A stretch of DNA of 33,838 bases. Origin: Rhodothermales bacterium (lineage in GTDB: Bacteria > Bacteroidota > Rhodothermia > Rhodothermales > JAHQVL01). The notes under the pieces are model-generated. The model was not told where the DNA came from and ran no database searches. It saw nothing but the letters and a program-made list of their open reading frames with translations. Within the stretch, counting starts at the first letter, position 1, and every line of letters begins with the position of its first letter. Shown in pieces: positions 13,018 to 33,838 of this stretch. The stretch covers positions 1 through 33,838 of the forward strand of contig JAWXAX010000156.1 in NCBI GenBank assembly GCA_034439735.1, given 5' to 3'. The translations under genes and the position numbers were made by a program.

Positions 13018-13416
13018 ATGAAGCGAAACTCTCTCACCCCGCTCGGCGAGACCGAGATGGAGATTTTACGGCACGTGTGGGTGCTTGTCGAGGCGACCGT
13101 CGCGCAGGTCCACGAGCGGCTGCTGCTGGAGCGGAAAGTCGCCTACACGACCGTTATGACCGTCATGAAAAAGCTGGCCGAGAAGGGATTCCTCGCCTTC
13201 CGGGCCGACGGCAACACCTACGTCTACCGCGCCTCGCGGTCGCAGGAGGATGTCCAGCAGGAATTACTCGGCGGGCTCCTCGAAAAAGCCTTTGGGGGCT
13301 CGGGACTTTCGCTGCTTCAGTCGCTCGTGCGGCAGGAGTCGCTCACCGACGCTGAGCGTCAGGAAATCCGCCACCTCATCGAAACCATGGAGGACGACGA
13401 TGAACCTGCTCGATAA
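13018..13416 (+). CDS. BlaI/MecI/CopY family transcriptional repressor
   Basis: A 132-residue winged-helix repressor. The N-terminal half has the family pattern LTPLGETEMEILRHVW, then TVAQVHERL, the recognition helix VAYTTVMTVMKKLAEKGFL and the wing FRADGNTYVYRA. The C-terminal half is the helical dimerisation region, which in BlaI/MecI is cleaved after a signal from the membrane protease. The downstream M56 gene starts 17 bases before this stop codon, the classic repressor-sensor pair arrangement. A perfect palindrome over its promoter suggests autorepression. There is no clear ribosome binding site before the ATG. Regulated targets beyond its own operon are not visible in the window. Confidence 0.92.
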   Translation: MKRNSLTPLGETEMEILRHVWVLVEATVAQVHERLLLERKVAYTTVMTVMKKLAEKGFLAFRADGNTYVYRASRSQEDVQQELLGGLLEKAFGGSGLSLLQSLVRQESLTDAERQEIRHLIETMEDDDEPAR

Positions 13417-14824
13417 CCTCGAATTTCTGCGTATTACCGGCGAGGCCGCGCTGGCCGGCTACTGGATGCCTCAGCTCGTCTGGGCGGCGCTCGCCGGCGC
13501 GGTGTTACTCGCCCTGCGTTTCGTCCGCCTGTCCCAGCCGATCCAGGGCTATCAGCTGCTGACGGCGCTGTTGCTGGCGCTGCCGGCGGGGCTCCTGCTT
13601 GCCCCGCTGATCCGGTTCGAGATCGCCGCGCCCTGGACCTGGCTGGCCCCAACGGGCCCTTCGGATACCGGGGTCAGCGTGGGTTCACTACTCGCTGCCA
13701 CCGAGGCGCCCGCGACCGCGGCCTGGACCTTCATTCACACCCTCGGCCTGCTCACCTTCCTCGCCGCGGCCTGTGCCGGCGTGCAGCTGGCGGCCTTAGT
13801 ATACCGTTTGGTTTACTTGATTCGCATTCGCCGGATGCTGGCCATTCCCGCGCCCGAGGATGCCCAAAACCGACTGCACGCGCTGCGGGCCAGGCGAGGC
13901 TTCCGCCGCGAAGTCGCCCTGTTCGCAAGCCCCGAGGGGCATTCCCCCGTCACCTTCGGCTGGCGCCGGCCGGCGATCGTGGTGCCTGTCTCCCTGCTGG
14001 AAGACGACGGGGCGCTGGCGATGACGCTGGAGCACGAGTTGATCCACGTGGCGCATGGCGACTTCGCGCGGGGCGTGGTCGAGTCGATCATCCGGGCCGT
14101 CTTTTTCCTCAACCCTCTCGTCCACTGGGGGGTGGAGCGAACCGAGCGTTTCCGCGAGTTGGCATGCGACGCCGAGCTGCTCAGTCAGCCGGATTTTAGC
14201 CGGAAACGGTATGCCTTGCTCCTGGCGCGGTTTGCGTTCCAGCCGGCGCCCGACCAGCGTCTGGCGGTACACATGTCGTCCGCCGGCCGGCTCAAGGAAC
14301 GGGTTCAGGCGATGAGCGCCTACCGGGGAGGGCCGGCGTCGCCGAAGACCACCCGGAGGATCGCCCTGGCGGGATCGGCCGTGTTTTTTGTGCTCGGCAT
14401 CGCGGCGATGGGGTGTGAGGTGACGTTCGACCAGAGCCTGACCCTCAATCAGTACGCCCTGGAATCCCCGAACCCGGCCTCTCCGACGCCGCCCAATCCC
14501 ACACCGGCCGGCGAGGTTTTCATGATCGTCGAGCACATGCCGGTCATGATCGGCGGGCTCGAGCGGCTGCAAGCGTCTATCCAGTACCCAGACATCGCGC
14601 GAAAAGCCGGTATCGCGGGCCACGTATTCATCCAGTTCGTGGTGGATACCGAGGGCCGCGTGGTGGACCCCATCGTGGTGCGGGGCATCGGGGCGGGGTG
14701 TGATGAAGAAGCCGTCCGCGCCGTCTCCGAGATGCGGTTTTTGCCCGGCCAACAACGGGGCGTCGTCGTTCCGGTGAAAATGTCGATACCGATCACGTTT
14801 AAGCTGGAGGAGCCGGCGTCGTGA
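13400..14824 (+). CDS. M56 (BlaR1-type) membrane metallopeptidase fused to a TonB C-terminal domain
   Basis: A 474-residue protein. Hydrophobic segments lie at ~24-43, ~52-71, ~110-140 and, after the catalytic region, ~228-242 and ~320-338. The zinc site is HELIH (212-216), with the downstream acidic motif FRELACDAE (251-259) as in M56 peptidases. After the last membrane segment and a Pro-rich linker (~355-372), the periplasmic part is a TonB C-terminal domain (~373-470, with VFIQFVVDTEGRV and VRGIGAGCDEEAV). In BlaR1 this place is taken by a penicillin-binding sensor domain, which is absent here. It probably cleaves or triggers cleavage of the upstream BlaI-type repressor; the signal is unknown. 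Translation is coupled by a 17-base overlap. Confidence 0.9.
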   Translation: MNLLDNLEFLRITGEAALAGYWMPQLVWAALAGAVLLALRFVRLSQPIQGYQLLTALLLALPAGLLLAPLIRFEIAAPWTWLAPTGPSDTGVSVGSLLAATEAPATAAWTFIHTLGLLTFLAAACAGVQLAALVYRLVYLIRIRRMLAIPAPEDAQNRLHALRARRGFRREVALFASPEGHSPVTFGWRRPAIVVPVSLLEDDGALAMTLEHELIHVAHGDFARGVVESIIRAVFFLNPLVHWGVERTERFRELACDAELLSQPDFSRKRYALLLARFAFQPAPDQRLAVHMSSAGRLKERVQAMSAYRGGPASPKTTRRIALAGSAVFFVLGIAAMGCEVTFDQSLTLNQYALESPNPASPTPPNPTPAGEVFMIVEHMPVMIGGLERLQASIQYPDIARKAGIAGHVFIQFVVDTEGRVVDPIVVRGIGAGCDEEAVRAVSEMRFLPGQQRGVVVPVKMSIPITFKLEEPAS

Positions 14825-23377: not shown

Positions 23378-26062
23378 TTATTTCTTCGAGACCGAGCAAT
23401 TCGATTCGGCCGGGAAGCAGGAAAGCAGGCCCGTTACATACTGTAGGACGAGCGATGCATCGTACGCCGTAACACTCGCATCACCCGAGGCATCCGCCGC
23501 CGTAAGCCCCACGCCGCTCAAGGTACTGATCGACGCTACGTGCTGGAGAATCAGCGCGGCGTCGAGGGCCGAGATCGAACCGTCCCCGGTTGCGTCTCCC
23601 TTCGAATAGGCGACCGTGGCGTCGTCGTCCGCAATCGTCAACGTGATCTTGTTCGCCACGGCATCGACCTCGTACCCCGAGCCGGCGCCCAACGTCAGGA
23701 TGGCCGTCTCTCCGCCCTCGTTCGTGGCATCATCGATCGGGTCGATCGTCAACGAGATCTGCGATACGCCGCTCTCGAGGATGACGGGCGTGGCGATGAC
23801 TTTGTAGTCGGTGCCATGAATGGCAGTCCCGGTAATCGTGAGGGTAATGGCCAGTCGGCTAGCGAGGTCGCCGGCGCGTTTTACAAACACCTTCGCTTTA
23901 TTGCCCGCACCGCCGGGTTCGCGGGCGGTCGGATTATTGGCGTCGAGGGTGAGCGAGATCATCGGCGTGCCCTGGTGGTCGTCGTCAGGATCATATTCGT
24001 AGAGCGAATCCCAATCCCCGAGTGGCCAGGCGTCCTTTCCCCATTGGGCGAGCGAGTCGATGAGAGAAGGAGCAACGCCCATATCATACATAAAGGGCAC
24101 GATTCGGTAGAAGTTGTCGGCGTAGTTGAACCGATCCTTCATCATGCTGCCGTTGCCGTTCCACCCTTCGGGCTTATAATTCGCTGGCTCGAGTTGGTCG
24201 TTGTCTTCTCCCCGTCCCCAGGCGCTGAGCGGGAACTCGAGGTTCTTGACGGTAAACGAACGCAGCAGTTTTTCGGATACCTGGCGTAGTTCTTCGGTAG
24301 TGAAGGTGCTCCAGGCCGTATTCACCCCCATCTCTGCCGCCAACCCATCGACAAACCAGTAGGGATGTACGTGGCGCATGTACCACCCCTGACCGCCGAT
24401 GCCGTCCTCGTTGTCGGTCATCTGCAGCATCTTGATGTAGGTGGCGGCCATGCGGGTGCCGGAGGTGAGGCCCGTGTAGTTCGAGAAGTCGCTGATATGC
24501 CCGAACTGGTACTTCCAGTCGACAGGGCTGTGCTCCAGCGGGTCCCGGTTGCCGGCGTTGATAACCATCTGCGCGTGATACCAGATGTGCGAAAAGACCT
24601 TGTCGAGCTTCTCGCTGCCGTAGGTAAACACATTCGGATCCTGCGCTTCGCGGCTGATGTGCGGGGCGACGTTGAAGATGTTGCGGGCTCGGGAGAACCA
24701 GGTATATTTCTCGCCGGCGTCATACATATCCGGCGCCCGGTCCTCCAGGTCGTATTGCTGCATGATCTCCCACACCTTCACGATCTGCCAGAGATGGAGC
24801 GAGAGGTGGGCGCGCACCTGCTTGGTGGCTGTCGCACCCGACGGCCAGGGTTCGTTCCGGCGAAAATCCGATACGGCGTTGTCCCAAGACTCGAAGTAAC
24901 CGATGATCTTCCCACTGGAGATGGCGCTTTCGACACCGCCGGCGAGGGCGTCATCGAGACCGCTTTCGTATTCCTGCGAAGCTTCGCTCGAGGTGAAGGT
25001 GCTCCAGTGGTCCTTCGGGTGGACGATCGGGAGCCAGCGGTTCCAGTCGGGCATCTGGATCGAAAGGGGAATCTCGCGCAGATTCAGTGTGGTTTTTGAC
25101 GAGGTCCGCGCGTTGGTGATGCCATCGGGAAAGAGGTAGGGAATGGCGTCGCGTTCATCATCGAGTACCCACTCCAGCCCGGCGCCGGCGGCCCACTGGG
25201 TAACCGGCTTGTTATCGGTGCCGGGGCCTGGTTGATACGGCGGGTTCCAGGGACGGCCGTGGGCCGGATACGGGAGCGACCGGATCCAGCTTGCGATTTG
25301 CTCGCCCTGCTTCTTGGTCAGGCCGTGGTGTTCCGCGCGGACAACGATCGACTTATTCGAGTAGTTAAAATACTTGAGGTCCCGCCCATCCGCCGCATGG
25401 CAGTCTGCGCACCGCGCCTTGATCGAACCGGTTAGAGGCTCGACGAGCGCCGCGTTCTTCCAGAGATCGGCGCCGGCGGCCAGGTCGGCGGCACTGGTGA
25501 GAATAGGCGCCCACTTCGAAGGATCGTCTTCCAAGAAGTCGACGGCGGACAACACCTCGGCGCCGCTACTGCGCAGCAAGTTGAATTTCAGCACCCGCCA
25601 GCCGGACGAGACGCCATCGGTGCCGTTGAAGCGAAACTGGATGGTGTTGGTGCCCGCTTTAACCAGGCCTGAGGCCAGCGAAATGGAGAACCGGATGGTG
25701 CTGTAGGCGCCGCCGATACCGTCGAGTGTCGCTTCGGGTTCGGCCATGGTTACGTTGCTGTCGCGGAGATCGAGCCAGGCGGCGTCATTGACCTTGACGC
25801 TGCCTTTGTTGTCGTAAGAGAGGTTATGTGCCTGGATCCAGAGGCGGTTGATGCTGGAGGCGTCGTTGACGGTTACGGTGACGGTTTCGATGTGGCCGGC
25901 GGCGCCATGCACTTCGATCGGCAGCGTAACCGGAGCAATAAGGGTTTGAACGACAGGGCTACTCTGGGCACGGCTGTCTAACGTAGCCAGTGCAAGGAGC
26001 ATGAAAAGACCGAGTCGAGCGAGGGCAATTGGAGTTACGAAAGAGAGGCCGTAGGTATGCAT
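23378..26062 (-). CDS. Secreted c-type haem protein with Calx-beta and dockerin modules
   Basis: 894 residues. Signal peptide ~1-32 (LARLGLFMLLALATLDSRAQ). A beta-sandwich-like region (~38-165) is followed by a haem c site CADCH (Cys218, Cys221, His222) within a short cytochrome-like segment (~170-260). The large middle part (~265-700) is unassigned, helical, Trp/Tyr/His-rich. A Calx-beta domain (~708-815) precedes two dockerin-type EF-hand repeats (GDATGDGSISALDAALILQH, ADASGDASVTAYDASLVLQY), and the tail LLSCFPAESNC ends the protein. Dockerins bind Ca and usually cohesins; no cohesin is in the window. Redox activity on a polymer or alcohol is a guess. It follows the DUF5060 gene by 41 bases, so they likely form an operon. 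Confidence 0.8.
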   Translation of the reverse strand: MHTYGLSFVTPIALARLGLFMLLALATLDSRAQSSPVVQTLIAPVTLPIEVHGAAGHIETVTVTVNDASSINRLWIQAHNLSYDNKGSVKVNDAAWLDLRDSNVTMAEPEATLDGIGGAYSTIRFSISLASGLVKAGTNTIQFRFNGTDGVSSGWRVLKFNLLRSSGAEVLSAVDFLEDDPSKWAPILTSAADLAAGADLWKNAALVEPLTGSIKARCADCHAADGRDLKYFNYSNKSIVVRAEHHGLTKKQGEQIASWIRSLPYPAHGRPWNPPYQPGPGTDNKPVTQWAAGAGLEWVLDDERDAIPYLFPDGITNARTSSKTTLNLREIPLSIQMPDWNRWLPIVHPKDHWSTFTSSEASQEYESGLDDALAGGVESAISSGKIIGYFESWDNAVSDFRRNEPWPSGATATKQVRAHLSLHLWQIVKVWEIMQQYDLEDRAPDMYDAGEKYTWFSRARNIFNVAPHISREAQDPNVFTYGSEKLDKVFSHIWYHAQMVINAGNRDPLEHSPVDWKYQFGHISDFSNYTGLTSGTRMAATYIKMLQMTDNEDGIGGQGWYMRHVHPYWFVDGLAAEMGVNTAWSTFTTEELRQVSEKLLRSFTVKNLEFPLSAWGRGEDNDQLEPANYKPEGWNGNGSMMKDRFNYADNFYRIVPFMYDMGVAPSLIDSLAQWGKDAWPLGDWDSLYEYDPDDDHQGTPMISLTLDANNPTAREPGGAGNKAKVFVKRAGDLASRLAITLTITGTAIHGTDYKVIATPVILESGVSQISLTIDPIDDATNEGGETAILTLGAGSGYEVDAVANKITLTIADDDATVAYSKGDATGDGSISALDAALILQHVASISTLSGVGLTAADASGDASVTAYDASLVLQYVTGLLSCFPAESNCSVSKK

Positions 26063-26103
26063 CGGTTATCTCAAGTGGGACAATCGAGGGGGCTTCGATC
26101 GGC

Positions 26104-28485
26104 TTAATTGCCTGTAGGTGATATACAGGGAGCATCGGCGGGAAAACAGGAGAGGATACCCACCAGATACTGTAAAATGAGGGAGGCGTCAAAGGCGCTG
26201 ATTTCACCATTGCCGGAGACGTCTCCGGCGATGAACGCCGCGCCGGCCAGAGCGATCGAACCGGCTGCGTGCTGTAAAATCATCGAGGCGTCGAGAGCAG
26301 AAACCGCGCCATTTTGTGACGGATCGCCGAGTAATGTGGGGGGCCCATCATCATTATCGAACAGAAGGATCGTCGCGGCGCCCTCTCCGAGTGCTATCGA
26401 ATGGTTAGGAGACACCGAAAGAGTGAGCACAATCGTTTCGGTGGGCTCGACCACCGAGTCGTCGATGACCTGGATATCGACCTTTTTCGAGGCCTTGCCG
26501 GCTTCGATGACGATGGTCGCCGGCAGCGGCTCGTAATCGACGCCCAGAGACGCCGTACCTGAAAGCGTATACAACAGGGTCAGTGGCGAGCTCAGATCGC
26601 CCGTTCGATCGAAGGAAAAGCGCCCGACAAGCGCATTCCCCCCCGGTTCGTGGGCCTCGCCGTCGACCACGCCGACCGAAACGACCGGCGTCTGCCCCAC
26701 CCCGCCGCCGGCCGAGGCCACCAGCGCCACCCAGTCCAGGGTAGAGGGCGACGGGGGTGCGCCCAGGGACAAGGTAGCGCCGCCGGTCACCTGTGCGGTC
26801 GACCCGGAAACGAGCGGTCCACCCGTCCGCGGGTTGTACCAGGAGACGTTGAACGTCCCTGTGGCGCCGGCCAGGTTGAGCGTGGTCGTTCCACCCGAAG
26901 GCAGATAGATGGCGTAAACGTGCCCACCAAGCGCAAAAACGTAATCATCAGCGGCCGGGGTCAGGGTGTTCGCGGCCTCCATGTCTTCGAAGGGGAGGTG
27001 GGTATCGAAGAAAGCCCGAGCGTATCCCATCTGTTCGAGGAGGATGTCGTACGAGCGCCAGTCTTCAAGGGACAGGTCATCCGTAGTGAACCACTCGAGT
27101 CCGGCGCCGCCGCCCATCAACATCCCCCAGAGTCCCCCTTTGCGCAGTTCGTCCGCGCGGGTGTTGCCGGCGTTGGGAGACTGCTCATCGCCATAGACGG
27201 CCCAGGGCCGGCCGGCAACCCGGCTCCGCTCGCGGTAATACTGGGCCAGTTCGTTGTAGTCCAGGTGGCCGGCCTGGAGCGAGGTCGCCTCGAAACTCGG
27301 AAGGCCGAGCATGGCGTCGTAAAAGGTGAAGGACTTGCTGTCGGACGTGTGTACGGTGATCGGGTGGTCGTAGGGATCAACCGCTCGGATGTAGTCCGCA
27401 AAGGCGATCTTCTGGTTATCGCCATTGGTGTTCTCTTCGCCGATATTCCACTGGACGGCCAGATGGTGGCCAAAGCGCGCGACGAGTTCGCGGTAGTAGA
27501 GCTTGCGGATGTCGTTGAGATTGTTGTTGTCCTGCCCGATGGGGCCGAGCGCCTTGGCATTTTCGCGCTCGGTGAGGACTACATGGAGCTGGAGTCCTTC
27601 TGCATCCATGTGGGCAAAGACCTTTTCCCACTGATCGAGCTTGCTGACGTCGAACCGCTCTCGTTCGGTGTGGGACGTCCAGGGCCACACGTCACAGCCA
27701 TCGCCCGAATCCAGATTATAGGTTAAAAGGTAAAGGTTGTTTGCCCCCACACTACTCAGATAGTTGATCCCGCCAATCAAGCCTTTGCCCTTGGATCCTT
27801 TCCAGAACGGGTCGCCGGTCTTCCAATCGGAGACATGCGGCGTGAAGGCGTGAAGTGAGTTGTCGATCCCTTCGCCGGCGCAATCGGTGTCGTAGGTGCC
27901 GTCGAAATCGGCGTAGGCGAGCAGGTTCTCCGGGGTATTGGGGGATACCTTGATGAAGTATTCGCCCGAGCCGGCGAATCGGAAATAGTGCTCGCCCACG
28001 TAACGCAGCATCCCTTTGCGGCGAAAATCCGTGTCGGGCTTGTCCGTCCCCCCGATGGTAAAGGCGCCGCTTGCGCCGTTAAAGGAGGTGGCTGCGCCGG
28101 CGCCTGTCGCGAGATCCACCGACACATAAGCGCCTGTCCGAAACGATGCGGTGTAGATCCATGCGCCTTCGTGGTCTGGCGTGAAGTGCACACGCCATTG
28201 ATTCCCACTCGTTGCACTGGTTTCGCCGGCGTTGCCATCACCCGCATAAAACCCGGGGACCGAATAGGTTACACCCGTCGCCGTATGGGTGAAGGTGACC
28301 TGGAGGCGGTAGTCCGTAAAGGGGTTGATCGCGGCCGTTTCACTCGTCTGCGGCCCGCTAAACGAAACCGTGACCCGGTGCCAGATGCGCAGCTCGCCGG
28401 ATACGACGTTCGCACGCAGCGGCAGTGCCCAGGCGACGGCCAGCACAGCGAGGAGACCACTTCTAAAACACAGATGACAGAACAC
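26104..28485 (-). CDS. Secreted DUF5060 glycosidase-like protein with Calx-beta and dockerin
   Basis: 793 residues, GTG start. Signal peptide ~1-25 (LLAVLAVAWALPLRA). DUF5060 domain (~27-125: typical WHRVTVSFSGP, then FTPDHEGAWIYTASF). A TIM-barrel-like glycosidase region (~150-470) has KVSPNTPENLLAY, LTYNLDSGDGCDVWPWT and QWNIGEENTN, where Glu350/Glu351 sit at the expected acid/base place. A small beta domain (~480-575, YAIYLPSGGTTTLNL, WYNPRTGGPL) is like the putative collagen-binding domain that follows such catalytic parts. Then Calx-beta (~590-700), dockerin repeats (~712-775) and the tail ILSCFPADAPC, matching its downstream neighbour. Polysaccharide degradation is likely; the substrate is not known. 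Confidence 0.85.
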   Translation of the reverse strand: MFCHLCFRSGLLAVLAVAWALPLRANVVSGELRIWHRVTVSFSGPQTSETAAINPFTDYRLQVTFTHTATGVTYSVPGFYAGDGNAGETSATSGNQWRVHFTPDHEGAWIYTASFRTGAYVSVDLATGAGAATSFNGASGAFTIGGTDKPDTDFRRKGMLRYVGEHYFRFAGSGEYFIKVSPNTPENLLAYADFDGTYDTDCAGEGIDNSLHAFTPHVSDWKTGDPFWKGSKGKGLIGGINYLSSVGANNLYLLTYNLDSGDGCDVWPWTSHTERERFDVSKLDQWEKVFAHMDAEGLQLHVVLTERENAKALGPIGQDNNNLNDIRKLYYRELVARFGHHLAVQWNIGEENTNGDNQKIAFADYIRAVDPYDHPITVHTSDSKSFTFYDAMLGLPSFEATSLQAGHLDYNELAQYYRERSRVAGRPWAVYGDEQSPNAGNTRADELRKGGLWGMLMGGGAGLEWFTTDDLSLEDWRSYDILLEQMGYARAFFDTHLPFEDMEAANTLTPAADDYVFALGGHVYAIYLPSGGTTTLNLAGATGTFNVSWYNPRTGGPLVSGSTAQVTGGATLSLGAPPSPSTLDWVALVASAGGGVGQTPVVSVGVVDGEAHEPGGNALVGRFSFDRTGDLSSPLTLLYTLSGTASLGVDYEPLPATIVIEAGKASKKVDIQVIDDSVVEPTETIVLTLSVSPNHSIALGEGAATILLFDNDDGPPTLLGDPSQNGAVSALDASMILQHAAGSIALAGAAFIAGDVSGNGEISAFDASLILQYLVGILSCFPADAPCISPTGN

Positions 28486-28751: not shown

Positions 28752-31700
28752 TTATTTCAGCAGTATCATCTTGCCCGTATCACTCACCGTCTGCGCGGGC
28801 ATGACGGCTTCGACGCGGTAGAGGTAGACGCCGGAGGCAAGGCCGCGGCCATCCATCTCGATCTGCCGGCTCTGGCCGGCGGCCAGCTTGATCGCGTTGA
28901 TCTGGCGGACGCGCCGGCCGAGGAGGTCGAACACCTCAATGCTCACATCGGCGGCTTCCGGCAGGTCGAATACGATCTGCGTGACCGGGTTAAACGGATT
29001 CGGATAGTTTCCTTTAAGGCCAAAGGCTTCCGGCAGTTCGGACTGCCACTCGCTGAGGCTCTGGATCATCAGGGCGTCGGTTTCGGCATCTTCGATAGCC
29101 AGCGTGCCGCCCGTACGGACCCGGAAGGTCTCGACCTCGGCGCCGTTGCGCATCCGGCTGACCACGTACTCATTGTCGTTTCCACCTTCGGGCAGGGCCT
29201 CCATCCGCAGGGTGAGCGGGAAAGCCACGTGCTTGAGCTGGACGACGTTGGCAGTAGTTTTCGAGAGCCTCGACTGGTCGGCGTACCGGATATCGAACGC
29301 AACGTCTGGGGCCAGAGGCGGCATACTGTACTGTGTCAGCAGGGCGTCCTCGATCTCGCCACCGAAGTGGAGCGTTTGGAGCCGGCCCTCGTCATCGCTT
29401 ATCGCCACACGGCCGAAGCTTCCGAGGTCGGTCGGGTCGTTGGGGAGGCGGAAGGAGGACGTATTGCTGCAGTCGAAGCGCAACGCGCCGGCTTCTTTCG
29501 CCCGCACCCAGTACCCGCGTCCCTGCTGCAAGCGATCGGCCGGCTGGTAGCCGGAATCGGTGTCGTAGCGGTAGAGCGAGTTCGGAACGATGTGCTCGGC
29601 GCCGGCCATGAGGTTCAGGTCGAGGTCACACGAGGCGCCGGCGATCATATTCCAGCCGGCCTTGAGAGCCACTGTCATCGTATCGAGGCGTTCGCCCTGG
29701 AGCGTCGTCAGCTGTTCTTCCTCGGCGCGGGCCCAGTATCCGCGGCCGCCGATCATGGCGGTCGTGGGGGCATACTTGCCATCGGCATACTGGAGCAGCT
29801 CATCGGTGGCGAACGTCTGACCGGCGTTGGCTTCCGAAACGAGCGGCAGGCCGACGAGCGACCACGATCCGTCGAGCACTTGCTGGTAGCGGCGGACGAT
29901 GAACGTGTTGTCGACGCCGTTGTAGCGGGCATTAAGCGGCACCGTGGCCGGCGTCGGGACGATTTCGATCCCGCTGACGAACGGATTGTCGACGACGCGG
30001 AAGAAGTTGATGTCGATGTTGCCATCGGACACCGTCACGATGAAGCTCTTCTTCACCGCCGTCTGGTAGCCGGCGTCCGCGACGACGTCGTAGTCGTTGA
30101 GTACGAGGTTGTTTTCGATGACCACATCGAATAGCCGCTCGCCGATGTCGTTCGTGGCTGTTCCGGTTTCGGCGAAGTAGAGGTTGACCTCATAGTCGCC
30201 GGCCAGACCGACCGGAAAGTTCCACTCCATGAGCGTCCCGCCAACGGGATCCCATCGGTTGCTGCTGAAGATTTCGGACGGAGCGTCTGTGGTGTTGGAG
30301 CCAACGAAGGCGGCTTTGGAGATCGAGTTATCGCCCCCGGTGGCCGCGTTGCTGAACGGCGCCGGCTTGTTCTTCGTATCCCGCTCCCACACGATCGGCG
30401 TGTCGCTGATGCTGCCGTTGCCGGCGTTGACGCGGAACAGCGGATCGATTGTCGTGGCGGATTCGATAAACGTGGCGGTGATCGAGGCGTCCGTAAAAAC
30501 AGAGTAGTTGAACGGGTTGTCCGGGCTGACGATGTCACCCGACCAGGCGCTGAACTGCCAGCCTGGATCGGGGATGGCCGTGAGCGTAACCACCTCGCCG
30601 TCCGAGTACAGCGGCTTATCTGGCGTCTTCGTGACGGTACCGCTGCCAACGATGGTGACCTCGACAAACGAGAGGTGGACATTGGTCCCGTCGCCGGTGA
30701 GCGTGACGACCGCCGGCGAGCCGGCGCCGGTGTGCGCGATTTCGAGCGAGGCCGTTCGAACACCCTCCGTCGTTGGCGTGAGGACGACCTCGAGCGAATC
30801 CATGGCGCCGGAGGCCAGGTTGACCGAGCCCACGAAGTCGTGGCTGAACTCGGCGGCGTTAGCGCCCGTAATCGAGACGCCCGTCACCGTGCGGGCACCT
30901 GTCGACGTATTTGAGTAGTACACCTGCTTCGGGGCCGAGGCCACATCGACGGGCACGGAGAAGAAGTCGACGGTCGCCGGCGAGGCGAACAGGTCGGCGC
31001 CGAGGACGGGCCGGATCTCGAGAGCGTGGACAATCGGGTTGTCGATCACGTGCGCCAACTCGATGGTGACCGATCCGTCGGCCACGTTCACCACGGCCGA
31101 CTTCTTGATCGTCGTGTTCGCGCCGGCTTCGGCGAAGATGTCGAAGTCTTCGAACACCATCGCATTTTCCATTTTGATATCGAACACGCGACCCCCCACG
31201 GTATGGTTGCTCGCGTCCGATTCAAGGAAGTACAGATTGACCTGGTAGAGGCCTACCTGGGGCGCGGCGAAATTCCAGATCATCTCGACGCCGCCCGTCG
31301 GATCCCACCGGTTGGTGAGGAAAACATCGTTCGGGGCATCCGTGCCGTTGACGCCGGTGAAGGTCGTGATCTTACCCGTCCTATTGTCGTTACCGCTGGC
31401 GTTCACGTGGGGGGACGGGATATTCTTCGTATCGCGGTCCCAATCCTTGAGCGCATCGACGAGGTTGCCGCCGCCGGCATTCACGCGGAAGATCGGATCG
31501 CCCGTGACGACCCCGCCACCGCCATTGACGCCTTCGCCGCTCACGGGGATAGCGATCGAGCCGTTCGAGCCGTTGTGGTTTACAGTCAGCGTGGCGTTGA
31601 CCGCGCCGAGGGTGGTCGGTGCGAAGGTGACATCGGCGTACAGCGTGTCTCCAGGAGGGATGACCGCCGGCAGGCTGAAGGCATAGCTCAGGCTGAAGGC

Positions 31701-33838
31701 CGGGCTACCGGTGAGACTGAGGCTCGAAATCGAGATGTCCTGGTTGCCGCCAGTGTTATACAGGGCGATCATCTCGGCATCATCCAATCCCGTCTGGACC
31801 AGCCCGAAGGCCAGCGTCGTCGGGTCGGCCGCGAGCGTGCTCGGGACGACGGAACCGGGATCGGAAAGCGCCGTGCGGTCGAACACCTCCATGGTGCTCA
31901 TTTCGGGTCCGCCACCCGTTTCGCCCGAGCCGGCCGCGATATAGACGCGCGTGCCATCCACCACGGCCGCGGTGCCGTGGCGTCCGGTGTTCAGGGCGTC
32001 GAGCGTCCGCCAGCTATTGGTGCTGGTATCCAGGACTTCAACCTCGTTGTGCGCCAGCTGCTGGAGGCCGCTTTCGCCGCCGAGGATGAAGAGGTCGTTG
32101 CCGACGACCGCCGCGGCGGTGCCGCCGCGCGGGGTCGGGATGTTGCCGGTGAGGACCGGTAGCGTGGACCAGGAGCCGGCGTTAAAGTCGTATACATCCA
32201 CTTCGGGGATCGTGCTGCCGACGCTGCCGGCGCGACCGCCGGCGACGTAGAGCTTGTCGCCGATGATGGCCGCGTTGAAGTGGTCGCGTCCGCGGGGCAT
32301 GTTCGGCATGATCGTCCAGGCGCCCGTCGCGGGATCGTACTGGTCGAACATGGGCAGGTACACGGCCGAGCCGGCATGTCCGCCGAGGCTGCCGCTCACC
32401 AGGTAGAGCTTCCCGTTGTAGGCCACCGCTCCGGCGCTACCGCGGAGGCGGGCGGCGGGGATGGTCGCTCCGACGGTCCAGGTGTCTGTATTCGGGGCGT
32501 AGGTGTAGATGTTCGGCACGGGCGTTTCGCTCGGGAAATCACCCACATAAGCGCCAGCAACGTACACGACATTGCCCAGAGAGACCGCCTGGAAGTGGTG
32601 CATCTGGATCGGAGGCAGCGAGAGCTGCGTCCAGGCGCCAGTGGCCGGGACGAACCGATCCGTTCTGCGGCTGCCTCGACCGCCGATCAGGTAGAAATTG
32701 TTATCGTGCTTTACGAACGTATTCTCATGGCGCTGGCGCGGATCGGTCGGGGCCTGGTAGGTGTGCCAGAGGTCGGCGATCGGGTTGGGGTCCTGCGCGA
32801 CATCGATGGCATCCCAGGTGGCGGCGAAGACCGGGCCGGCGCCGGCCGAGGTCGAGATGATACCCACGGCGAGGCCCGAGGGCACGCCTGGAGCGACCTG
32901 GTACGTGCCCTGGATAGCCTGCAAGAGGCTGCCAGACACCTGGAGGGGGAGACCGAGGTAGACGGCTGGCTGGTTATCCTGGATGTACTTCGGTTGGATG
33001 GTGCCCGCGACCGGATTGACCGTGAGCAGGAGGTCGATGTTGATAGCATCGGCCGCGGTCGCGGCGATATAGTTGGTGACGGTGGCCACCCCGCCGGCTT
33101 CGTGGATCACCTGGAGCCCGCCGGCGCCCGCCTGGGCGTTGAGGGCCACCTTGACATAGTTATCCATGTTACCCGGCCCGATGTACATACCCAGCGCCTG
33201 ATTGTCCTGCGGCGTGACGCCGTCGAAGAACGGCCCGGTAATGCGCACCTTGACCGTGTAAGGCCCGGAGACGCCGGCCACGTTCACGCCAAACTGGAAG
33301 CCGTTCTCCTGCGTGTTAGTAGCACCCGTGGCATCTCCTTCGGAGACGGCGGAGACCGTGAAGAGGCCGGCCGTTCCGCCGGGCACGAGGTTATTCTCCT
33401 CGTACTGATCCAGATAATTCGTGACCCCGTTGGTCATGAGGCCCGTGAAGCCTACGCCGTAGAAGCCGGTGCCCGGGTCTTCGTTGAGGAGCGGGTAATT
33501 TACAGGCAGGGTGAGACCCGTGCCGTTCGTGGCATCGGTGGCGAAGGAGTCGTTGAGGTCGTTGACGCCGTCGTTGTCGTCATCCGCATCCAGGAGGTTG
33601 GACGTGAGGTCGCCGTCGTTATCCGCCGGCTTGCTGGCGGCCGAACACGGGTTGGACGCATTCAGCGTCTCGTCTTCGTTATCGAAGCCGTCGCCGTCCT
33701 CATCGAGGAGCGGGTCGGACACGCCGGTGCAGACGCCGCCGGCGGCGCCGCCGTAATCGCCCGGCTCAAACACCCAGATGTCGTAGCTGGCGAAGTCGGC
33801 CGCCCAGATGGTGCCGGGGAACGGATCGGTGTCGCCCT
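28752..33838 (-). CDS. Giant secreted protein with kelch, HYDIN-like, malectin and T9SS domains (5' partial)
   Basis: The frame is open to the right edge (21 more residues before the GTG at 33773, including PGTIWAADFASYDIWVFEPG), so the gene is cut. Numbering from 33773: thrombospondin type 3-like Ca repeats (~20-75, DEDGDGFDN, DADDDNDGVND); a lectin-like beta region (~100-325); about six kelch repeats (~335-630, VYVAGAY, LYLVSGSLGG, LYVAGGRAG, LFILGGESG); an ASH/HYDIN-type domain (~645-748); malectin-like domain 1 (~757-920, FRVNAGGG); a second ASH domain (~925-1030); an InlB-B-like repeat (~1035-1105, WSGDIVSPDNPF); malectin-like domain 2 (~1110-1273, FRVNAGNG); an unassigned part; and a T9SS domain (~1585-1673, YPNPFNP to YLYRVEA). 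It is likely a surface carbohydrate-binding or adhesion protein. Confidence 0.9.
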   Translation of the reverse strand, partial: GDTDPFPGTIWAADFASYDIWVFEPGDYGGAAGGVCTGVSDPLLDEDGDGFDNEDETLNASNPCSAASKPADNDGDLTSNLLDADDDNDGVNDLNDSFATDATNGTGLTLPVNYPLLNEDPGTGFYGVGFTGLMTNGVTNYLDQYEENNLVPGGTAGLFTVSAVSEGDATGATNTQENGFQFGVNVAGVSGPYTVKVRITGPFFDGVTPQDNQALGMYIGPGNMDNYVKVALNAQAGAGGLQVIHEAGGVATVTNYIAATAADAINIDLLLTVNPVAGTIQPKYIQDNQPAVYLGLPLQVSGSLLQAIQGTYQVAPGVPSGLAVGIISTSAGAGPVFAATWDAIDVAQDPNPIADLWHTYQAPTDPRQRHENTFVKHDNNFYLIGGRGSRRTDRFVPATGAWTQLSLPPIQMHHFQAVSLGNVVYVAGAYVGDFPSETPVPNIYTYAPNTDTWTVGATIPAARLRGSAGAVAYNGKLYLVSGSLGGHAGSAVYLPMFDQYDPATGAWTIMPNMPRGRDHFNAAIIGDKLYVAGGRAGSVGSTIPEVDVYDFNAGSWSTLPVLTGNIPTPRGGTAAAVVGNDLFILGGESGLQQLAHNEVEVLDTSTNSWRTLDALNTGRHGTAAVVDGTRVYIAAGSGETGGGPEMSTMEVFDRTALSDPGSVVPSTLAADPTTLAFGLVQTGLDDAEMIALYNTGGNQDISISSLSLTGSPAFSLSYAFSLPAVIPPGDTLYADVTFAPTTLGAVNATLTVNHNGSNGSIAIPVSGEGVNGGGGVVTGDPIFRVNAGGGNLVDALKDWDRDTKNIPSPHVNASGNDNRTGKITTFTGVNGTDAPNDVFLTNRWDPTGGVEMIWNFAAPQVGLYQVNLYFLESDASNHTVGGRVFDIKMENAMVFEDFDIFAEAGANTTIKKSAVVNVADGSVTIELAHVIDNPIVHALEIRPVLGADLFASPATVDFFSVPVDVASAPKQVYYSNTSTGARTVTGVSITGANAAEFSHDFVGSVNLASGAMDSLEVVLTPTTEGVRTASLEIAHTGAGSPAVVTLTGDGTNVHLSFVEVTIVGSGTVTKTPDKPLYSDGEVVTLTAIPDPGWQFSAWSGDIVSPDNPFNYSVFTDASITATFIESATTIDPLFRVNAGNGSISDTPIVWERDTKNKPAPFSNAATGGDNSISKAAFVGSNTTDAPSEIFSSNRWDPVGGTLMEWNFPVGLAGDYEVNLYFAETGTATNDIGERLFDVVIENNLVLNDYDVVADAGYQTAVKKSFIVTVSDGNIDINFFRVVDNPFVSGIEIVPTPATVPLNARYNGVDNTFIVRRYQQVLDGSWSLVGLPLVSEANAGQTFATDELLQYADGKYAPTTAMIGGRGYWARAEEEQLTTLQGERLDTMTVALKAGWNMIAGASCDLDLNLMAGAEHIVPNSLYRYDTDSGYQPADRLQQGRGYWVRAKEAGALRFDCSNTSSFRLPNDPTDLGSFGRVAISDDEGRLQTLHFGGEIEDALLTQYSMPPLAPDVAFDIRYADQSRLSKTTANVVQLKHVAFPLTLRMEALPEGGNDNEYVVSRMRNGAEVETFRVRTGGTLAIEDAETDALMIQSLSEWQSELPEAFGLKGNYPNPFNPVTQIVFDLPEAADVSIEVFDLLGRRVRQINAIKLAAGQSRQIEMDGRGLASGVYLYRVEAVMPAQTVSDTGKMILLK

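Follow-up and report, generated by a model that had tools for sequence, protein, structure and literature searches.

Two genes for secreted proteins of 793 and 894 amino acids (aa) lie in tandem on the minus strand of the window (the whole 33,838-nucleotide stretch of Rhodothermales DNA that was analyzed), separated by 41 bases (Table 1). Both proteins begin with a hydrophobic, signal-like stretch, and both contain a type I dockerin (PF00404) that scored over the cut-off of 22.9 bits in the Pfam scan (32.0 bits for the 793-aa protein and 41.4 bits for the 894-aa protein) and again in a profile search. The dockerin is followed in each case by a short tail with two cysteines, and the proteins end CFPADAPC-ISPTGN and CFPAESNC-SVSKK, respectively, that is, 6 and 5 residues after the second Cys. 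Neither has a T9SS domain (PF18962/TIGR04183) at its C terminus; both stop after the dockerin.

Table 1. Positions in the window of the two dockerin genes, their parts and the upstream neighbor
Feature	Position	Strand	Content or evidence
793-aa secreted protein	26104-28485	minus	DUF5060, apiosidase-like, Collagen_bind_2, Calx-beta, dockerin, CFPADAPC tail, stop
DUF5060, residues 32-116 of the 793-aa protein	28138-28392	minus	Pfam, 75.4 bits
Collagen_bind_2, residues 512-587 of the 793-aa protein	26725-26952	minus	Pfam, 30.8 bits
Calx-beta, residues 631-712 of the 793-aa protein	26350-26595	minus	Pfam, 41.4 bits (cut-off, 27)
Type I dockerin of the 793-aa protein, two EF-hand repeats	26164-26328	minus	Pfam; profile search, 37.0 bits; predicted model matches solved dockerins
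CFPADAPC, predicted dockerin C-terminal loop of the 793-aa protein, Cys pair C780/C787	26125-26148	minus	
894-aa secreted protein	23378-26062	minus	CxxCH heme-type motif, weak Calx-beta, dockerin, CFPAESNC tail, stop
CADCH, residues 218-222 of the 894-aa protein, c-type heme attachment motif	25397-25411	minus	Kept in 13/13 homologues read
Calx-beta-like, residues 723-814 of the 894-aa protein	23621-23896	minus	22.6 bits, below the Pfam cut-off of 27
Type I dockerin of the 894-aa protein, two EF-hand repeats	23435-23602	minus	Pfam; profile search, 46.6 bits
CFPAESNC, predicted dockerin C-terminal loop of the 894-aa protein, Cys pair C882/C889	23396-23419	minus	
Upstream neighbor	28752-33773	minus	Kelch, two malectin, choice-of-anchor-D, T9SS type A domain (28806-29006); no dockerin

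A sequence-only reading of this locus had described the shared end of the two proteins as Calx-beta, dockerin and a CFPA-x3-C tail. The dockerin and the tail are indeed present in both, and Calx-beta is present in the 793-aa protein, but the corresponding region of the 894-aa protein falls short of the Pfam cut-off. The apiosidase-like match in the 793-aa protein is also below its cut-off. The Pfam scan found no catalytic family in the 894-aa protein, the large central region of which has no Pfam family, and all of the cysteines in this protein are the two of the CADCH motif and the pair in the tail. The CxxCH motif is kept in 12 homologues from outside the family (the three related genomes defined below) and in a relative from within it (L076), and because it is kept in all 13 homologues read, the protein looks, from its sequence, like a dockerin-tagged c-type cytochrome. 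The same reading had counted two other proteins in the window with T9SS domains. We found only one, the upstream neighbor, and no second T9SS domain was found in the contig when the whole genome was searched with PF18962 (E <= 0.1) and 20 other ORFs of the window were scanned with Pfam. Elsewhere in the window, a single ORF (13250-14824) fuses a BlaR1-type M56 peptidase domain to a TonB C-terminal domain.

The Cys tail is not a product of chance. The DNA pattern for CFP[A/V][D/E]xxC gave 18 matches in the family set of three genomes (the source genome G000, with 5.13 Mb in 304 contigs, G029 and G030), and the reversed control gave 1; 16 of the 18 fell within dockerin proteins, and the frames that held the other 2, of 36 and 75 aa, are spurious. 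Across an order set of 114 genomes, a dockerin-plus-tail profile matched 31 genomes with 69 matches in all, and we read 52 of them (29 in the family and 23 outside it, with 17 left out). Forty of these dockerins had the Cys pair, 11 had neither Cys, 1 was cut by a contig end and no complete one had a single Cys. Further proteins with a dockerin and a Cys tail, which the sequence-only reading had proposed to look for, were found in the source genome itself, where 9 of the 11 dockerin proteins bear the pair. A sample of 87 dockerins from named genomes (the best 80 of 178 loci, with ORFs containing masked runs left out), which is biased because the loci were picked by one short peptide pattern, contained two with the pair, both from a Rhodothermaceae MAG, 85 with neither Cys and none with a single Cys. 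The FP of the loop was common to most of the dockerins shown from this sample, and throughout the FCB group dockerins are closed by an FP that has no Cys beside it. Because the dockerins from named genomes mostly have FP without Cys, we read the FP as a segment of the dockerin and the Cys pair as an addition seen in this order, which would provide an annotation rule for dockerin ends in the FCB group (an FP loop, with or without the Cys pair).

Structure prediction agreed with the placing of the tail within the dockerin. An AlphaFold2 model of the window dockerin with its tail (input alignment, 41 of 71 rows; 20 of 62 for another model) had a mean pLDDT of 89.7, with a value of 85 for residues 71-80, which hold the tail. 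VIA-align matched model residues 8-78 to the ScaB dockerin 4uyp_B (Z, 13.5; rmsd, 1.1; 71 residues aligned), and the first Cys and the FP of the predicted model fall within the aligned range. On the strength of this model, the window dockerin together with its tail has the dockerin fold, and the CFPxxxxC tail is predicted to cap a type I dockerin at its C terminus and not to be a separate address. The pair itself had been taken for a disulfide or an extra sorting signal. The former suggestion holds up: because complete dockerins have both Cys or neither, it is likely that the pair forms a local disulfide loop, C-F-P-x-x-x-x-C. An alignment of the pair-bearing dockerins took in 39 of the 40 rows. 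Nine of the 18 pair-bearing family proteins that stop after the tail have no further Cys after a crudely guessed signal peptide, which also favors a local disulfide.

The latter suggestion fared less well once we looked at what follows the tail. Among the 29 dockerin proteins read in the family, 19 stop after the tail (18 with the pair and 1 without Cys) and 10 run on for ~210-225 residues, 8 of these with the pair; the continuation consists of a cohesin-like module and a T9SS-type end. The T9SS end of the four run-on proteins in the source genome scored over the Pfam cut-off in three (on contigs C210, C24 and C129) and below it in one (C117). The sequence-only reading had treated the Cys tail as an address exclusive of T9SS and had named the tail within T9SS proteins as the observation that would count against this. 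A T9SS end follows the pair in 8 of the 26 pair-bearing family proteins (3 of 9 in the source genome), and the exclusive address has to be abandoned. A weaker part of the idea survives, in that 18 family proteins end 1-23 residues past the second Cys without a T9SS domain. Outside the family, among the 23 dockerin proteins read, no complete pair-bearing one stops after the tail.

These observations bear on the notion that the CFPxxxxC tail acts in its own right to sort or anchor the protein, through processing or through a disulfide link to a surface partner, which we regard as very improbable. It would fit the position of the tail close to the end of 18 family proteins and the fact that both Cys are always kept together. 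However, the loop is followed by at least 56 residues in 22 of the 40 pair-bearing proteins (1 of the 22 being cut by a contig end), an FP loop without Cys closes dockerins in other phyla and 11 dockerins have neither Cys. There is also no obvious disulfide partner, because the two scaffold-pair proteins on C59 (described below) and the one-cohesin protein on C25 of the source genome have 2, 0 and 0 Cys, respectively. We rejected a separate sorting role because proteins that end in a T9SS domain contain the identical loop at an internal position.

Broken genes were rejected as the cause of the missing T9SS domains. The 1000 bases that follow each of the 19 terminal genes (only 95 bases in one case) contained no T9SS remnant at E <= 10, and the positive control for this search recovered 13 of 13 held-out positives. 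Moreover, similar domain sets terminate alike across genera, for example PA14 with Flg_new_2 (C302, L059 and L067), and accidental truncation is therefore disfavored. Two other proteins deserve mention with regard to their ends. A dockerin-like T9SS protein (L046:1-921 and L048:3-1385), with a dockerin score below the cut-off, appears to be split across the ends of contigs C139 and C10, which share end sequence. In an 865-aa dockerin protein at L016 (1314-3908), the hydrophobic stretch is followed by SMIGC, which resembles a lipobox, and this protein may be a lipoprotein instead of being freely secreted.

The module that follows the dockerin in the run-on proteins is, as judged by profile comparison, a relative of cohesin. 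Alignment with the cohesins of the source genome gave an hhalign probability of 97.2 and an E value of 4.5e-11 (with 19 of the 29 modules included, one of them after manual trimming), and in a 2420-aa relative Pfam calls the module a cohesin (29.8 bits; cut-off, 24.1). A search of PDB sequences gave weak matches, the best of which (E, 0.0093) was a cohesin. Foldseek was supportive only, with a cohesin-Fn3 pair as the top match and many Ig-like rows lower down at similar E values.

The sequence-only reading had held that a dockerin implies a cohesin, and this was borne out in the source genome. A profile search with Pfam identified 13 cohesin modules over the cut-off in five proteins (six modules in a 1201-aa protein, one in a 285-aa protein, three in an 848-aa protein, one in a 475-aa protein and two in a 595-aa protein), and the modules were also matched to solved cohesins. 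Each of the five proteins carries a T9SS tail, which in the 595-aa protein scores below the Pfam cut-off. A further protein of 261 aa has a weaker cohesin, at 18.8 bits, together with a T9SS tail at 23.3 bits, and both are below the cut-off. The 1201-aa protein on contig C59, with six cohesins, DUF4397 and a T9SS domain, is a non-catalytic multi-cohesin protein of the kind expected of a scaffoldin. It belongs to a gene pair present in all three family genomes (C59 in the source genome, C29 in G029 and C25 in G030), in which a protein of 272-285 aa with one cohesin and a T9SS domain accompanies a protein of 894-1201 aa with three to six cohesins, DUF4397 and a T9SS domain. Proteins of 261-286 aa with one cohesin and a T9SS domain occur twice in each family genome.

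Some cohesin genes lie directly beside dockerin genes. On C117, the frame of a 662-aa beta-helix dockerin protein opens right past the stop codon of the 595-aa cohesin-dockerin gene, with both on the same strand, and on C129 the gene for a 588-aa dockerin protein is followed by that for the 848-aa three-cohesin protein in the same arrangement. A three-cohesin protein at L019 (574-3117), which also has CARDB, a peptidase M23 domain and a T9SS tail, adjoins a dockerin gene. Recurring across the order is a dockerin-cohesin-T9SS protein of ~2,000-2,800 aa (L087:7657-14916, L086, L088 and others), and in most cases a separate gene for a cohesin lies immediately downstream of it; the L087 protein is a subtilase.

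At the level of whole genomes, a cohesin was found in 29 of the 31 dockerin-bearing genomes of the order versus 13 of the 83 others, and the profile search found none in the remaining 2 dockerin-bearing genomes; the Fisher p of 8e-15 for this co-occurrence overstates it because the genomes are related. A separate cohesin gene lies on the same strand within 5 kb of 26 of the 40 dockerin genes outside the family, and inside the family 4 of 29 are near a cohesin gene, this adjacency count being a lower bound, with several same-frame repeats and weaker rows left out of the cohesin list. Co-occurrence, the adjacent cohesin genes outside the family and the terminal state common to proteins with the same domains in different genera all argue against the possibility that the dockerin has no cohesin partner and is a structural remnant or a clasp within its own molecule, such that the proteins act alone in the periplasm. 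We consider this unlikely, despite the existence of some homologues without any C-terminal address and of non-cellulosomal dockerins of unclear role, as noted in the part of one report available to us (PMC9012536).

Among the terminal dockerin proteins scanned in the family are DUF5060, beta-helix, PL14, PA14 and F5/8C proteins. Judged by their domains (DUF5060/apiosidase-like, beta-helix, PL14 and carbohydrate-binding type), several dockerin proteins are predicted to be carbohydrate active, as would be expected of a cellulosome. Exchanges of the C terminus were found among the relatives of both window proteins. In the phylum, 18 of 395 genomes encode a protein related to the catalytic part of the 793-aa protein, and the closest is a paralogue in the source genome, 69% identical over the catalytic part, in which a T9SS domain replaces the dockerin. 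Twenty homologues were read: 7 have a T9SS-like end (by eye), 12 have neither a T9SS domain nor a dockerin and 1 is cut. Relatives of the 793-aa protein therefore need not be extracellular. For the 894-aa protein, 11 genomes gave matches, and of 12 homologues from outside the family (a set that leaves out one contig-edge match), 9 have a T9SS-like end (by eye), 2 do not and 1 is in a doubtful frame. Both family members of this group end in a dockerin, L076 with CFPVELGC plus two residues.

We think it probable, from the domains and genomes compared here, that the dockerin enzymes dock onto scaffolds exported by T9SS to form a cellulosome-like, polysaccharide-directed surface complex. The 793-aa and 894-aa proteins would be exported by Sec and would fold and be oxidized in the periplasm, with the dockerin end locked by its short disulfide loop. 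They would then be held by the cohesins of T9SS-exported proteins, either at the surface or before reaching it, and the candidate holders are the six-cohesin T9SS scaffold, the adjacent one-cohesin-T9SS protein and the cohesin-dockerin-T9SS hybrids. Which cohesin binds which dockerin cannot be read from sequence. Against docking stand the 12 homologues of the 793-aa protein that have neither address, the small number of family dockerin genes near a cohesin gene and the two dockerin-bearing genomes in which no cohesin was found.

As for the outer membrane, SprA, the T9SS channel protein, is present once in each of the three family genomes. No secretin scored over the curated GspD cut-off, and because those found fall below both the GspD and the PilQ cut-offs, T2SS is an unlikely route. 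The enzymes without a T9SS domain would thus either reach the surface by another route and dock there or be carried out on cohesin-T9SS partners. In the latter case, a dockerin would bind a cohesin-T9SS carrier while still in the periplasm, and the two would exit together, folded, through the T9SS channel, the dockerin acting as a borrowed export tag. This proposal is doubtful, although several findings are consistent with it: the 18 terminal pair-bearing proteins without a T9SS domain, the lack of a remnant downstream of the 19 terminal genes, the two small one-cohesin-T9SS proteins in each family genome and the presence of SprA without a secretin at the GspD cut-off. In addition, heme attachment to a c-type motif takes place in the periplasm, so the 894-aa protein would have to leave in a folded state. 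However, the terminal dockerin proteins might leave otherwise, through a T2SS scoring below the model cut-offs or by other routes, or might stay inside, and we found no description of T9SS piggyback export in the portion of the literature available to us. If the proposal were correct, the one-cohesin-T9SS proteins of ~270 aa would be secretion adaptors for folded, oxidized and, in one case, heme-bearing enzymes, and a disulfide-closed dockerin would survive passage through the T9SS channel.

Docking onto T9SS-exported scaffolds, the reading that we prefer, would give the Rhodothermales a cellulosome-like system complete in its parts, with T9SS scaffolds and with enzymes that have no T9SS domain, and it makes testable the question of how cargo lacking a T9SS signal of its own gets to scaffolds that depend on T9SS. 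The system shares with the clostridial cellulosome the dockerin fold, the duplicated repeats and Pfam-recognized cohesins that match solved cohesins. It differs in that its cohesin proteins have T9SS tails, whereas clostridial scaffolds carry S-layer or sortase anchors, and in that binding is here a prediction. The sections available to us of the literature searched contained no mention of a Rhodothermales cohesin-dockerin system or of a Cys-closed dockerin tail, although a 2009 survey of non-cellulosomal systems may mention one, and none of the literature matches listed (the best 15 of 76) had a disulfide-closed dockerin end. A clasp of the first dockerin is described for a Clostridium thermocellum double-dockerin in the part of that report available to us (PMC12484212). 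In the structure 8x39 of this double-dockerin, the second dockerin runs into a Leu-Pro segment after the last helix, as the window dockerins run into their FP loop; unlike theirs, the aligned segment has no Cys pair.

A cellulosome-like complex has also been proposed for "Ca. Stygibacter" of the Cloacimonadota, with signal-peptide enzymes that bear dockerins and a 3,755-aa scaffoldin-like protein that has cohesins and a C-terminal attachment domain (PMC8542988, as far as the portion available to us describes it). The likeness to the present system lies in the signal-peptide enzymes with C-terminal dockerins. "Ca. Stygibacter" belongs to another phylum, and the Rhodothermales system is marked by the Cys-pair loop, the conserved two-gene DUF4397 scaffold unit and the cohesin-dockerin-cohesin-T9SS hybrids. 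A parallel set of terminal dockerins, at least 11 in number, is present in one Cloacimonadota MAG (loci L106, L129, L136, L141, L150, L157, L163 and L172); their FP-type loop, which some of them reach only as far as its F, has no Cys.
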